A stretch of DNA of 64,000 nucleotides from Arcticibacter pallidicorallinus (GTDB lineage: Bacteria; Bacteroidota; Bacteroidia; Sphingobacteriales; Sphingobacteriaceae), in contig NZ_PVTH01000002.1 of assembly GCF_003002875.1 (NCBI RefSeq), forward strand, positions 62,001 through 126,000. Direction: 5' to 3'. The notes under the pieces were generated by a model. That model was not told where the DNA came from and made no database searches. It saw only the letters and a list, made by a program, of their open reading frames with translations. Each line of letters begins with the position of its first letter. Position 1 is the first letter of the stretch. Below, piece by piece: positions 1-13,609 of the stretch. The translations under genes were made by a program, and so were the position numbers.

Positions 1-72
1 CTCCTGAATTAAAATGATCAATCCCAAAAGGATACAGATGATAATGGCAACAATGATGATAACGTAAAACAT
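1..72 (-). CDS. secG: SecG preprotein translocase subunit, N-terminal fragment
   Basis: Reading the minus strand from an ATG at 70-72 gives 24 hydrophobic residues beginning MFYVIIIVAIII and ending LIILIQE before the window edge. This is the first transmembrane helix and the start of the conserved Q-rich loop of SecG, the small two-helix subunit of the SecYEG channel that assists SecA-driven export. It begins 9 bases after the stop of the TPR gene upstream, so it is the next gene of the same operon. Only the first helix is visible, so identity rests on this helix and the gene order LptE / TPR protein / SecG, which I recall as common in Bacteroidota. Confidence 0.75.
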   Translation of the reverse strand, partial: MFYVIIIVAIIICILLGLIILIQE

Positions 73-81
73 ATCTTATAA

Positions 82-1467
82 TTAGCTGATTCTCTTTTCT
101 AAATTCTGAATTTGGCTTGCAAAGTAACTACTTTTATCCGGATATTTCAAACTTAATTTCCTGTACGTCTCAATTGCTTTGTCGAAGAGCATCTGATCCG
201 TATATATTTTAGCTAAGGTTTCCGAAACCAGCTCCAGATTGTCTTCCGAACTTTTCCTGGCCTTGTTCTCCGTATCGACCTTTGCGGTGCTTGGAGGCTT
301 GATCTGTGGTTCTTCCTTAATGAATTTCTCAATAATAATATCTTCCTTTCGCTTTAACTCAAACTCAACCGTTGCGTTCGCGGCAATCGTGTTCAACTCC
401 GGCTGAATATGGAAAATATTCTCGATGATTTGCTGGTTCAGCAGGGGCGAAGCTACCGCTGTGCTAGTTCTTCTGCCAGGTGCTTTTGGCGCATAAGGCT
501 GATAGGTCTCCTCAAACTCCTTACGGGTTTTATGTAACCACCATAAGAAACTGTAAGGAAGGGAATCATCGTCGTATCTGGACACCTCCTCTTTTTCTTT
601 CTCAGCCAAAGGCTCTTTTTTTACAGCGCTTAGCTCTGTCTTAAGGGGGTCGATGGCAGATTTGTTAAATGTAAAGTAGTCGGATGACGCGATGCTTTCT
701 ACCGCTACATGATTCGCCGCCGCTTCTTCTTGCAGGGCCTCTTCCGCTGCTTCCTGAACCGGAAGTTCAGATTCAGGGATCACCGTTTCAATAAGTTCAT
801 CAGGATCTTGTTCAACCCAATCGTCCCCTGCCGTTGGTTCTTCCTGAACAGCTTCTTCGACGGTGCTTTCTGCAACGGAAAGTTTCGCAGGCGAATCCTG
901 CTCGCTGCTAAGTTCTTCCGACTCGTCTTGTTCTATATATTCTTCTATCAGCAGATCGTCTGTGCGTTCTTTGGGCGCAGATCCTGTCTCGTTATCTTGC
1001 TCCTCAATCGTCCCTTCCTGTCCAAATTCTGACCTTTCCGCCTCTACAAACTCCTCTATATCTGATTCGTGTCCTTCAATTGCTGCCGCCTCTGTTTCCG
1101 GGGTAACCGTTTCTATATCATGATACACTACTTCTCTCGCAATGGTTGGTGCCGAAAGTTCAGGCAGGCGGATATCTTCGCTTTCGTCTGACAAGTCAAA
1201 GTCCGGCTGGAAATACTGCGGTTCGTTCATGAACCGGTAAAGTACATCCCTTCTGGGAGCATATAGGGAAGCCTTTTTTAGATAACTTTCATAAGTGGAC
1301 TGATCCTCCGTGCGCAATGCAGAGGCATGTGCAAAATGTAGCGGCTGACAGTAAGGAAACTTTAAAACAAGGTATTTCAGTGCCGCCCTGTCTGCGTCCG
1401 TCCACTTTTCCGAGGGCGACAAAAACTTTAAAAATTCCTTGTTTCCTGATGCCTGAAGTTTTTCCAC
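82..1467 (-). CDS. Acidic tetratricopeptide-repeat protein of the lptE-secG operon
   Basis: 461 residues starting at a GTG codon (1465-1467). There is no signal peptide. The first ~75 residues form a folded block (start MEKLQASGNKEFLKF) that resembles helical repeats. Residues ~90-270 are very rich in Glu, Asp, Ser and Thr and look disordered. A basic/aromatic segment containing SLPYSFLWWLHKTRKEF follows, then a C-terminal single TPR-like hairpin (LAKIYTDQMLFDKAIETYRKL, about 412-432) and an ending QNLEKRIS. It sits 29 bp after lptE and 9 bp before secG, so it is probably co-transcribed with both. The function is unknown; the TPR suggests a protein-protein adaptor, perhaps for envelope biogenesis, which is inference from context. 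Confidence 0.8.
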   Translation of the reverse strand: MEKLQASGNKEFLKFLSPSEKWTDADRAALKYLVLKFPYCQPLHFAHASALRTEDQSTYESYLKKASLYAPRRDVLYRFMNEPQYFQPDFDLSDESEDIRLPELSAPTIAREVVYHDIETVTPETEAAAIEGHESDIEEFVEAERSEFGQEGTIEEQDNETGSAPKERTDDLLIEEYIEQDESEELSSEQDSPAKLSVAESTVEEAVQEEPTAGDDWVEQDPDELIETVIPESELPVQEAAEEALQEEAAANHVAVESIASSDYFTFNKSAIDPLKTELSAVKKEPLAEKEKEEVSRYDDDSLPYSFLWWLHKTRKEFEETYQPYAPKAPGRRTSTAVASPLLNQQIIENIFHIQPELNTIAANATVEFELKRKEDIIIEKFIKEEPQIKPPSTAKVDTENKARKSSEDNLELVSETLAKIYTDQMLFDKAIETYRKLSLKYPDKSSYFASQIQNLEKRIS

Positions 1468-7994: not shown

Positions 7995-9287
7995 TTAAAA
8001 AAGAATCCTAAACTTAATCGTTTGGTCGATCTCCTTCAACTCTTTCAGTACCTGCTTGTCATAGCGGGCGCTTACGTCCGTAATGGCATAACCGATCTGC
8101 TCGTTGGTCATTAGGAATTGTCCCGAAATGTTGATGTTATGATTAGCATAAACATTATTGATCTGCGCCATGATCCCCGGAATATTCTTATGGATATGGA
8201 TCAGACGGTGAGCGTTGCCCACCTTCGGAAGCTGTAAGTTCGGGAAGTTGGAGCTCATATAAGTGTCGCCCTTATTAATGAAATCAGCCATTCGTTTAGG
8301 GATAAACTTGGCGTTTCTGGGGTTCTGCTTCTGGTCGTCAAAGATCACGATGCCCATTTCTGTAGCGATATCATGTGATATCTTGTTCTTGCTATTACCC
8401 AAATAGCCTATCGTCTTCAGTTTGATAGCCTTTAAAAGCTTGGCGTCACTTATTTTTTCTCCATCAGCCAGCAGGACCATCCCCACGTCACCAACATACT
8501 TGTCTTCAAAAGTCTCCTTATGACGAATAGAGAATCCGTCCTTTTTCAGAACCTGTATAGCTTCTTCCGGAACGTCACCTACAATGAGGCAAAGGATCCT
8601 GTTTTTAGGATAGGAGATAGCCTGAGGTAATTTATTAACATATAAAAACTCATCAAAGCTCGGCGTGATATGATCTGCTTTCTCCAAAATACTTTGTCGC
8701 GAAATGTTCTCCGTAAAAGCATAGAACTTCTGGATCAGTCCCGACTCCTTTAGCTGGAAGTCTGAATATCCGTCTCCGATACCGTAAATATTACCTTCCA
8801 GTTGCAGCTGCTTCAAAAGCTTCACCTTGCCCCCTTCCTGCGAAAGCGGGTTTTCCTGGTCATAGCCGGTTATATTACCTTCTTCATCAAAGGTGAAGGT
8901 ATTCGCATATATGTTTTCTATTTTGATATCAAAGGGCAGAACCACGGGCGTAATAAACTCCTTAAAGCCTCCCGACACGATCAAAACCTCGTCTGCGTGT
9001 TGTTTAAAGAACTCCCTGTTACGTGAAAAGGAAGCTGAAACTTTTTTCTTAAGCCTGCTGACAAGCTGTTTGAGGTGTTCCTGGTTGGCATGCAGTAGCT
9101 GCACCCTTTGGGTAAGGCTCTCTCTGAAAGACAAGCGGCCTTCCATGGCTGCATTGGTCAGATCCTCGATCTTTTTATAGATCTCTTCCCTATCGGGATG
9201 ATCGCTTAATGAAATTCGTACGAGTTCATCTAATGCCTCTACCTGGGTAAAGGTGCTGTCAAAATCAATGATGTAAAAATTCTTCAT
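7995..9287 (-). CDS. Phosphoserine phosphatase fused to SerA remnant and ACT domain
   Basis: 430 residues. Residues 1-215 are a HAD phosphatase of SerB type: motif I DFDST (D8, D10), motif II S105 (VSGGF), K154 (GGKVKLLK), and motif IV GDGYSD (D172, D176). This part should hydrolyse phosphoserine to serine. Residues ~229-327 resemble the first, substrate-binding lobe of phosphoglycerate dehydrogenase SerA (ILCLIVGDVPEEAIQVLKKD; KTIGYLGNSKNKI). Residues 337-430 resemble the end of SerA (FINKGDTYMSSNFPNLQLP) and its serine-binding ACT domain (HRLIHIHKNIPGIMAQINNVY). The ~180-residue NAD-binding catalytic domain between them is missing, so it cannot be a dehydrogenase. The reading frame is intact, so this is a designed-looking chimera, probably giving serine feedback control. 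Symbol left blank because of the fusion. Confidence 0.85.
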   Translation of the reverse strand: MKNFYIIDFDSTFTQVEALDELVRISLSDHPDREEIYKKIEDLTNAAMEGRLSFRESLTQRVQLLHANQEHLKQLVSRLKKKVSASFSRNREFFKQHADEVLIVSGGFKEFITPVVLPFDIKIENIYANTFTFDEEGNITGYDQENPLSQEGGKVKLLKQLQLEGNIYGIGDGYSDFQLKESGLIQKFYAFTENISRQSILEKADHITPSFDEFLYVNKLPQAISYPKNRILCLIVGDVPEEAIQVLKKDGFSIRHKETFEDKYVGDVGMVLLADGEKISDAKLLKAIKLKTIGYLGNSKNKISHDIATEMGIVIFDDQKQNPRNAKFIPKRMADFINKGDTYMSSNFPNLQLPKVGNAHRLIHIHKNIPGIMAQINNVYANHNINISGQFLMTNEQIGYAITDVSARYDKQVLKELKEIDQTIKFRILF

Positions 9288-11872: not shown

Positions 11873-13075
11873 TTAGACTACCAGTACCGCCGGTCCAAAT
11901 TCCTCAAAATGAATTCGATCTTTATCGACATTCTGATCGAGGAGATAGTGATAATGCTTTTTGATAAACTCGCCGGGACCGCAGATGTAGTAGTCGGTAT
12001 CAGGATTAATTGCGTCCTGGATCTTTTCCAGGTCTACATAGCCTTCATAAAAATCATCTTCCAGATCATTTTCTATCGTATCATAAAAAGTGTGGATTTT
12101 CATTTTTCCATGTCTGGCACCGAGTTCTCTTACCACATTTTTAAAAGCATGAACAGCGTAACTTCTGGAGCCATGGATCCAGGTAATGTGTCTGTTCTTG
12201 CCAGACGCGATGGTGGATTCAAGCATGCAAATAAAGGGAGTCAAACCGACGCCGCCACTAACAAATACGACGGGATTGGTCTTTGTAGGGTCGAAGGTAA
12301 AATCCCCGGATGGTGGAGCCACTTCAATCACCCCGCCCTGCTGAACTTTATTATGCATCAGATTGCTGACATATCCTTCAGGACGGGTCGAGTTACCGTG
12401 CTCTTTCTTTATGGATATTCGGTAAAAGTCGCCATTTGGTGCAGCAGATAGACTATACTGCCTCGGCTGGAAAACCTTAAGTTCAGGAACGTATAGACGA
12501 ACAGTGATGTATTGACCTGGTAGAAAGTCGGCGACTTTCCCTCCATCGGAAGGGTAGAGATAAAACGAGGTAATCTCTTCAGACTCTTTTACCTTGTGCT
12601 TAACAACAAACGGTCGCCAACCGCTCCATCCGCCTTCTTTCTGCGCTGCGCTACTGTACAGATCAGCTTCCACGCCAATCATAATTCCCGCAAGCTGGTT
12701 ATAGGCAAGTCCCCACGCTTCAATAAGCTCAGCACTCGCCGCCTCTCCAAGTACTTCGGAGATAGATGCCAGCAGGTGTTTCCCCACAATCGCATATTGT
12801 TCCGGTCGTATATCCAGGCTTACATGTTTGTTGGCGATACGGTTTACCGCATGAGCCAGCACTGTAGGGTTGTCGATGTTCTCCGCATAAGCCAATACCG
12901 ACATGGCAAGCGCTGTGGGCTGGGCTCCGGTATGCTGATTTGCTGAGTTAAACACATTCCTCAACTCCGGATTGTGAGTCAGCATACGGTTATAGAAGTA
13001 AGTGGTTAACGCGACGCCATGCTCTCTCAGGATAGGGACAGTGCCCCTAACTAATTCTTTCTGTTCGTTTGTCAT
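11873..13075 (-). CDS. hmp: Flavohemoprotein (nitric oxide dioxygenase)
   Basis: 400 residues from the ATG at 13073-13075 (MTNEQKELVRGTVPIL); a longer in-frame reading to 13111 adds 12 residues unlike the family. Hmp oxidises NO to nitrate with O2 and NAD(P)H. Residues 1-140 form the globin domain (TTYFYNRMLTHNPELRNVFN; proximal His region NRIANKHVSL). Then come a FAD-binding reductase domain (FQPRQYSLSAAPN) and an NAD-binding domain (PVVFVSGGVGLTPFICMLE, YYICGPGEFI). Length is standard for the family. Divergent from an Rrf2-type regulator, as expected for NsrR-controlled hmp. Confidence 0.95.
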   Translation of the reverse strand: MTNEQKELVRGTVPILREHGVALTTYFYNRMLTHNPELRNVFNSANQHTGAQPTALAMSVLAYAENIDNPTVLAHAVNRIANKHVSLDIRPEQYAIVGKHLLASISEVLGEAASAELIEAWGLAYNQLAGIMIGVEADLYSSAAQKEGGWSGWRPFVVKHKVKESEEITSFYLYPSDGGKVADFLPGQYITVRLYVPELKVFQPRQYSLSAAPNGDFYRISIKKEHGNSTRPEGYVSNLMHNKVQQGGVIEVAPPSGDFTFDPTKTNPVVFVSGGVGLTPFICMLESTIASGKNRHITWIHGSRSYAVHAFKNVVRELGARHGKMKIHTFYDTIENDLEDDFYEGYVDLEKIQDAINPDTDYYICGPGEFIKKHYHYLLDQNVDKDRIHFEEFGPAVLVV

Positions 13076-13111
13076 ACTGTAGATATTAATACCTTTATAT
13101 ATTAAATACAA

Positions 13112-13147
13112 AAATAGATACTATCTTTTGAAACATCTAGTCTATTT
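13112..13147. promoter_or_regulatory. Putative Rrf2/NsrR operator between hmp and its regulator
   Basis: AAATAGA (13112-13118) and TCTATTT (13141-13147) are exact reverse complements, with partial further pairing towards the centre, in the 96-bp divergent gap. The position suits joint repression of hmp and autoregulation. Assignment is inference. Confidence 0.4.
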
Positions 13148-13155
13148 AATTTTTT

Positions 13156-13163
13156 TACTTTTG
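13156..13163 (+). promoter_or_regulatory. -7 promoter box of the Rrf2-type regulator
   Basis: TACTTTTG is a perfect TAnnTTTG box ending 8 bp before the ATG at 13172, so the transcript would have almost no 5' leader. It lies next to the right arm of the putative operator. Confidence 0.5.
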
Positions 13164-13171
13164 AACGTTTT

Positions 13172-13609
13172 ATGGCTATCTTTTCAAAAACCTGTGAGTA
13201 TGCAATCCGAGCTGTGTTTTACATTGCGCAGAAATCTGCTTTGGGCAGACGGGTAGGCATTAAGGAAATCGCTGCGGGCATTGATTCCCCGGAATTATAT
13301 TTAGGAAAAATTCTTCAAGACCTCAGTAGAAAAGGCCTGATCAGCTCGTTCAAAGGTCCGACAGGAGGATTTTTTATCGAAGAGCATGCTCTCCAGCGAT
13401 CTGTAAGTGAGATCGTAGAGGCAGTGGATGGCGACAGGCTTTTTTACGGCTGCGCGCTGGGATTGAAGCACTGTTCGGGAGATAATCCCTGCCCCTTACA
13501 TCATCAGTTCGAATCTATCAGGACTGAGATTCATGCTTTGCTGAAAAATACGACCATAGGAGCATTTAACGAGGAGTTGTTTCAGGGCTTGCTGACTTTG
13601 AAAAGGTGA
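13172..13609 (+). CDS. Rrf2-family (NsrR-like) iron-sulfur transcriptional regulator
   Basis: 145 residues. The N-terminal winged helix (MAIFSKTCEYAIRAVFYIAQ; recognition region around YLGKILQDLSRKGLISSFKG; wing GGF) is typical of Rrf2 proteins. Three cysteines C94, C101 and C107 (YGCALGLKHCSGDNPCPLH) have the spacing of Rrf2 iron-sulfur ligands as in NsrR and IscR. With the divergent hmp gene this points to a nitric oxide sensor that represses hmp until NO destroys its cluster. The cluster type and ligand cannot be told from the sequence. Confidence 0.88.
   Translation: MAIFSKTCEYAIRAVFYIAQKSALGRRVGIKEIAAGIDSPELYLGKILQDLSRKGLISSFKGPTGGFFIEEHALQRSVSEIVEAVDGDRLFYGCALGLKHCSGDNPCPLHHQFESIRTEIHALLKNTTIGAFNEELFQGLLTLKR

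Follow-up and report, generated by a model that had tools for sequence, protein, structure and literature searches.

In the phosphoglycerate dehydrogenase SerA, the NAD-binding domain sits inserted within the substrate-binding domain, so that its excision leaves a continuous, smaller domain. In the type II enzyme of Escherichia coli, serine binds at the interface between two ACT domains through His344, Asn346 and Asn364', the other subunit interface being formed by the NAD-binding domain (PMC6300728, excerpt). According to the same excerpt, ACT-less type III SerA is not regulated by serine, and in ACT-bearing SerAs that are insensitive to serine these residues are altered. An ACT-bearing phosphoserine phosphatase inhibited by L-serine is also known, the mycobacterial SerB2, whose domain order is ACT-ACT-PSP (PMC4270767, PMC10564941, excerpts). 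For the Mycobacterium tuberculosis protein, the IC50 of L-serine is 0.78 uM with the whole enzyme and 823.7 uM with the phosphatase domain alone (PMC4270767, excerpt). Free-standing HAD-IB phosphoserine phosphatases (human PSPH, 1nnl; M. jannaschii, 1f5s; 3kd3) have the HAD-IB core and motifs in common with the protein described here, and unlike it they carry neither an ACT domain nor a SerA part. Finally, full SerB-SerA fusions of Bacteroidota, such as L093 from a MAG titled Cytophagales bacterium UBA9432, have the identical domain order and ~45-63% identity over residues 326-430, but unlike the 430-aa protein they keep the whole dehydrogenase (~630 aa).

The gene studied here lies at 7995-9287 of the window, which is the whole stretch of 64,000 nucleotides that was analysed. 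On the minus strand this interval is one intact frame of 430 aa with an ATG start and no internal stops; the plus strand across it is broken by stops. Its closest named relatives are from Arcticibacter (88-89% identity), and the others are mostly from Sphingobacterium, Pedobacter and "Sphingobacteriaceae bacterium". Our family f1 is taken as Sphingobacteriaceae because the nearest named relatives belong to Arcticibacter, a genus of that family. No second copy of the gene was found in its own genome at E <=0.001. Over 32 named loci, some of them incomplete, the neighbours include an epimerase gene (29 loci), an arginase-family gene (29) and an ilvE-like gene (12), and no serine-pathway partner was found. 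Elsewhere in the window, two divergent frames occupy 11873-13609: the one on the minus strand resembles a flavohaemoprotein and the small one on the plus strand an Rrf2-like regulator, both named by eye. The features of the gene are as follows:

7995-9287, minus: whole gene; HAD-IB phosphatase, SerA substrate-binding domain and ACT domain, without the NAD-binding domain
8625-9287, minus: HAD-IB phosphatase domain, residues 1-221, predicted phosphoserine phosphatase (Pfam, 1nnl, 3kd3)
9258-9266, minus: HAD motif I, D8-F9-D10, invariant in a 32-row alignment
8760-8774, minus: HAD acidic motif, D172 and D176, invariant
8319-8603, minus: SerA substrate-binding domain, N-terminal segment, residues 229-323, with R60/R62 lost (fusion alignment, fold)
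8310-8315, minus: excision scar, residues 325/326, where full fusions have ~191 extra residues (NAD-binding domain)
8271-8312, minus: SerA substrate-binding domain, C-terminal segment, residues 326-339, inside a predicted helix (325-339)
8217-8270, minus: linker, residues 340-357, of low model confidence (pLDDT <50 at 339-353)
7998-8216, minus: ACT domain, residues 358-430 (PF22629, 7.2e-12; NF008759, 5.4e-41 over 326-429)
8184-8192, minus: predicted serine-binding pair H366/N368, equivalent to E. coli SerA H344/N346 (kept in 72/72 and 36/36)
8130-8132, minus: predicted serine-binding N386, equivalent to E. coli SerA N364 (kept in 72/72 and 36/36)

The substrate-binding fold, the ACT domain and the H344/N346/N364 triad are shared with E. 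coli type II SerA (1psd/2p9g). The latter also has the NAD-binding domain, R240/E269/H292 and R60, whereas the 430-aa protein has none of these, and by its sequence it is not a dehydrogenase.

The SerA-derived half and the apparent parent fusion

Residues 326-430 correspond to the SerA C-terminus and ACT domain: their match to NF008759 is a partial one, below the whole-protein cut-off, and E. coli SerA 1yba matches them at 9.9e-20. Residues 229-323 give weak single-sequence scores against the SerA N-lobe (PF00389, E 0.025, below cut-off; 1wwk, E 0.011), and they are assigned to it because the fusion alignment and the fold agree. Full SerB-SerA fusions align over residues ~3-326 at 39-50% identity, and the predicted substrate-binding segment superposes on E. 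coli SerA 2p9g (chain range 7..330) over 118 residues at 1.9 A and Z 16.3, from a model of mean pLDDT 79.5. In this model, the two parts of the discontinuous substrate-binding domain seem to come together even though the NAD-binding domain is missing. The initial annotation had likened residues 229-327 to the SerA substrate-binding lobe and the C-terminus to the SerA terminal strand and ACT domain. Both likenesses are borne out, and the segment 229-345, which it feared might be unrelated to the N-lobe, is related to it.

The catalytic residues R240, E269 and H292 are absent from the 430-aa protein, a Pfam search of which gave no match to the NAD-binding domain (PF02826), and the substrate-binding fold is present in the predicted model. 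Since the frame is intact, the domain has indeed gone without a frameshift, as first described; the loss of ~180 residues then proposed stands as a loss, its size against the fusions being ~191. The Gly-Gly hinge of E. coli SerA (336-337) is not conserved in the short forms, and it is missing in most intact fusions too. The full-length model has a pTM of 0.56 and the linker ahead of the ACT domain is of low confidence, so no predicted arrangement of the domains is trustworthy.

Matches to the 430-aa protein were found in 42 of 60 relatives, and in 132 of 396 genomes of the class (E <=0.001), some of these through the SerA ACT domain alone. Among the matches listed, those from families beyond f1 are frames of ~600-690 aa that match residues ~3-326, and then 326-430 some 190 residues later. 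The Pfam order on L093 is HAD, then 2-Hacid_dh with 2-Hacid_dh_C inside it, then ACT. The 430-aa protein is therefore the fusion minus its NAD-binding domain. By its sequence, the gene most likely descends from a complete SerB-SerA fusion, and we infer that the fusion came first because the short form has SerA segments on either side of the gap, in order. Thus, of the original proposal that a phosphatase had been joined to a SerA lacking its catalytic domain, the architecture holds and the origin is recast; comparing domain orders across families does reveal the full dehydrogenase elsewhere, in what appears to be the ancestral state.

Among 296 genomes sampled from the phylum, one from another class (G900, family f112) has a full SerB-SerA fusion, so the fusion is not limited to the window's class. 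This fusion (L140), used in the tree only, is the closest tree relative of the f1 short forms (82% support). In the same sample, free SerB occurs in four genomes of other classes (G862, G914, G903, G911). Two loci of genus g75 in family f12 (L099 in G089, L100 in G223) have SerB and SerA as separate adjoining genes, whose SerB parts nest within the fusion clade in the tree, which makes a fission of the fusion probable. At L101 (G312, family f2; 1000-2379) there is a SerA with ACT alone, in a 460-aa frame, and no match to the phosphatase part was found in that genome at E <=0.001.

Distribution, residue loss and the stand-alone SerA

Within f1, 294 of 301 genomes match the gene, in 20 of 22 genera and with a best E <=3.9e-185 in each; seven do not. 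Each of the f1 matches listed (to E 9.4e-207) spans residues ~1-430, and for those scoring below them contiguity rests on score. One f1 genome that is 99% complete (G582) has a close ACT-less SerA and no match to the short-form phosphatase. Outside the family, a short-form gene with 63-64% identity to the window's lies at 2791-4131 of L141 (G377, family f36). The other matching members of f36 match weakly (best E about 1e-21 to 1e-25), and in G377 the gene was possibly acquired by horizontal transfer.

The residues that were lost and kept were compared between 63 short-form rows, 62 of them from f1 genomes or named f1 records and one from f36 (L052, G377), and 43 full-length fusions. The first count leaves out L090 (partial) and identical copies, and the second omits frames <590 aa, among them L059/G146, which lies at the end of a contig. 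R60, K141, R240, E269 and H292 are all kept in 36 of the 43 aligned fusions; the remaining seven, six from f11 and one from f25, have lost some catalytic residues. In f11, R60 is lost in 6/6, R240 has become Y and H292 has become R, N or Q, with E269 kept in 3/6, and the spacing between two fixed points is 172-174 residues versus 198-199 in the 36 intact fusions. The f25 fusion (L055, G060) has G at both R60 and R240 in a domain that is full length and retains its glycine motif, and its dehydrogenase half is possibly a pseudo-dehydrogenase. In f14 the domain is deleted in both sequences, one of which is a truncated frame. This gives 72 members without an intact dehydrogenase (63 short forms, six f11, two f14 and one f25).

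The triad equivalent to H344/N346/N364 is kept in all 72 of them and in all 36 intact fusions, a retention for which ancestry or the structure of the ACT domain could be partly responsible. None of the 63 short forms retains R60 or R62 of the 3-phosphoglycerate site, the residue at R60 being A in 33, G in 20, D in eight, and S and Q in one each. The drift of the segments was measured at matched HAD identity. At 60-70%, the substrate-binding N segment and the ACT domain are respectively 50.7% and 64.2% identical in short forms (61 pairs), 66.2% and 63.9% in intact fusions (81 pairs), and 33.7% and 64.8% in f11 (3 pairs). At 70-80%, the values are 54.0% and 67.5% in short forms (1578 pairs), 78.9% and 80.7% in intact fusions (16 pairs only), and 31.5% and 68.5% in f11 (10 pairs). 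The substrate-binding segment therefore drifts once catalysis is gone. The ACT domain holds at HAD identities of 60-70% and is lower in short forms at 70-80%, where pairs of intact fusions are few. For the substrate-binding lobe, which has lost its ligand residues, a role as spacer or scaffold is more likely than one in sensing. The earlier suggestion that the SerA parts were kept as a regulatory module thus gains from the constraint on them and from the invariant triad, and becomes less likely only as regards sensing by the substrate-binding lobe.

The genome itself has a candidate for the lost activity. A SerC (NF003764, 493.6 bits; cut-off 253) is followed directly by a SerA-like dehydrogenase of 316 aa (P0002), which scores 297 bits with the PGDH model TIGR01327, below the cut-off of 454, and in which a Pfam search found no ACT domain. 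The pair lies on another contig (C6) than the short-form phosphatase (C2), and judging from its sequence this SerA could take over the missing dehydrogenase step. Among 76 selected genomes, 43 carry a close relative of this SerA (E <=1e-60), counts that are not phylogenetically independent. It is present in f1 (12/12), f11 (6/7, five of those six with the fusion), f14 (2/2, one being split over two frames) and f25 (1/1), as well as in f4 (4/4), f10 (6/6), genus g36 of f12 (5/5), f53 (4/4), and f41, f45 and f46 (1/1 each). It was found in none of the selected genomes of f2 (8), f15 (11), f48 (3), f67 (4), genus g75 of f12 (3) or f36 (3). In G050, G091, G219 and G283 the best match to the ACT-less SerA is the fused ACT-bearing SerA, and in G089 it is a free ACT-bearing SerA. 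The dehydrogenase is intact in 21/21 aligned fusions of f2, f15, f48 and f67; these families were represented by 26 genomes, of which G116, G266, G363 and G414 did not enter the alignment and G312 contributes a frame with SerA alone. In f4, f10, f12-g36, f45, f46 and f53, the fusions that were aligned are intact, and an ACT-less SerA is present as well. Loss of the dehydrogenase was therefore seen almost exclusively in genomes with an ACT-less SerA. G349 (f11) is the exception: the dehydrogenase half of its fusion is dead, and it has no close ACT-less SerA (best 31% identity). Because of this genome and of the families with an intact fusion beside an ACT-less SerA, replacement is not a sufficient cause.

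How many times the dehydrogenase was lost can be approached through the tree and the scar. Family f14 is placed inside another clade with 100% ultrafast bootstrap, and the deeper nodes have low support (42-82%). The scar is eight residues long in 62/63 short forms and four in one, and four in both f14 rows. An AU test on 59 of the 70 tree rows did not reject f1 and f14 as one clade (p 0.080, delta lnL 31); O_L138 and O_L139, left out of it, form a long branch adjoining f11 in the tree, a placement treated as an artefact. From these alignments, the f1 and f14 deletions are likely independent. It is quite conceivable, though we stop short of calling it probable, that in at least three and perhaps four lineages the fusion lost its dehydrogenase and kept its serine sensor, moving feedback from the first to the last step. 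Such losses by subtraction would have taken the form of deletion in f1 and f14, while in f11 and f25 the catalytic residues would have decayed. If this is true, repeated loss of the dehydrogenase with the sensor kept means that the sensor has been selected for the phosphatase alone.

A probable serine sensor on a phosphatase, and the alternatives

We consider it reasonably probable that the gene encodes a Sphingobacteriaceae phosphoserine phosphatase which kept the serine sensor of SerA, placing feedback at the last step. The analysis shows that every part is homologous to the fusion and that one domain is gone, and it gives the residues retained, the partner genes and the folds predicted. This suggests that feedback control was kept and that another gene took over the former catalytic task. 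In the proposed course of events, the NAD-binding domain would have been removed in frame long ago, the two substrate-binding segments closing up and carrying the ACT domain, and the separate ACT-less SerA beside serC would cover the dehydrogenase step. The ACT domains of two subunits would then pair as in E. coli SerA, and with the NAD-binding interface gone, this pair would be the remaining SerA-type contact between subunits. It would bind two L-serines, with H366/N368 contributed by one chain and N386 by its partner, and the serine-bound state would lower phosphatase activity on phosphoserine. If the route and sign of the effect are as supposed, serine-bound ACT would restrain the phosphatase, giving feedback at the final step in a way that resembles mycobacterial SerB2. 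Regulation of the phosphatase half may already have existed in the full fusion, and the deletion would then have required no innovation. SerB2 may be an analogue in its working. The arrangement differs, since SerB2 has two N-terminal ACT domains and the 430-aa protein has an N-terminal phosphatase and a single C-terminal ACT on a SerA lobe.

The SerA-derived tail might instead only dimerise or stabilise the phosphatase, serine control having been lost and the triad being kept by structure or inertia. In E. coli SerA, subunits do meet through their ACT domains (PMC6300728, excerpt). The short forms lack a conserved hinge, the linker is modelled with low confidence, and 16 of the 73 ACT columns are invariant across all 72 members, which extends constraint beyond the triad. 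Nevertheless, the triad is kept 72 times out of 72, in four families without an intact dehydrogenase and in the f36 short form, whereas the serine-insensitive ACT-bearing SerAs described in the excerpt of PMC6300728 have altered triad residues. Dimerisation without sensing is thus rather unlikely.

Less likely still, and in our view improbable, is that the substrate-binding/ACT module acts in trans, docking on the ACT-less SerA or on SerC and bringing serine control or channelling. The stand-alone SerA does lack an ACT domain in Pfam, and the short form retains a substrate-binding domain that is predicted to fold and is under purifying selection (dN/dS 0.009-0.060, with 3/8 pairs unsaturated there). 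The genes lie on separate contigs, however, within the short forms conservation is lowest in the substrate-binding N segment, and the other subunit interface of E. coli SerA, its NAD-binding domain (PMC6300728, excerpt), is gone here.

The substrate of the phosphatase half must also be considered. Pfam HAD PF12710 matches it at 4.3e-8, human PSP (1nnl) at 1.8e-19 and, by Foldseek, 3kd3 at 1.9e-15. The HAD-IB subfamily model TIGR01488 gives 71.8 bits, above its 45-bit cut-off, and D8, D10, S105, K154, D172 and D176 are invariant in the alignments, D8-F9-D10 being retained also in the HAD-bearing rows of a wider alignment that cover the motif. The N-terminal SerB-type HAD phosphatase recognised at the outset from D8/D10, S105 and D172 is therein upheld. 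The serB model TIGR00338 matches at 1.2e-18 and 67.5 bits, missing its equivalog cut-off of 144.15 bits, a curator's score attained in just 7 of 14 control genomes; the domain is therefore classed as a HAD-IB phosphatase and predicted phosphoserine phosphatase. E17 and R61 are invariant too, and align with E29 and R65 of human PSP, which we take to be its amino and carboxyl ligands. A different phosphate as the substrate of the HAD domain, for example histidinol phosphate, is very improbable. Annotated phosphoserine phosphatases of four bacteria have been proposed as histidinol phosphatases (PMC5764234, excerpt), and the missed serB cut-off would fit, but the parent form has its phosphatase fused to SerA, E17 and R61 do not vary, and no other SerB-like gene of similar score was found in the genome, where the runner-up is an 854-aa frame at 22.9 bits.

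An assembly deletion or a decaying pseudogene, which the sharp in-frame gap relative to other families might have evoked, can be discarded, given whole-length matches in 294/301 f1 genomes and a dN/dS <=0.06 in every segment of the unsaturated pairs. Three of the eight pairs are unsaturated in every segment; silent sites are saturated between the window gene and its nearest named relatives, so that dN/dS rests on other pairs. The deletion confined to this assembly against which the initial annotation had warned did not materialise, as family homologues also lack the dehydrogenase domain.

Significance of the short form

No description of the SerB-SerA fusion or of the short form was recognised in the open-licence PMC papers searched. 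The excerpts of PMC5715807 and PMC2705460 concern a different fusion, PGDH-PSAT, and the "SerB fused" of the PMC3630210 excerpt is an epitope tag. In the part of its Table 1 at hand, GapMind (PMC7311316) lists neither SerA nor SerB as a gap in Pedobacter GW460-11-11-14-LB5; a gene of this type is therefore probably accepted as SerB without remark. Because ACT-regulated phosphoserine phosphatases are already known, the new part is the architecture and its history. The case calls for caution in annotating genes of this kind from their C-terminal SerA match. What we describe looks like a regulatory domain that has outlived its enzyme and is now attached to a different one from that pathway; living lineages still include the intact parent, fusions whose catalytic residues have decayed, and the clean deletion. 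The prediction is that a bacterial family would control serine synthesis at its last step.
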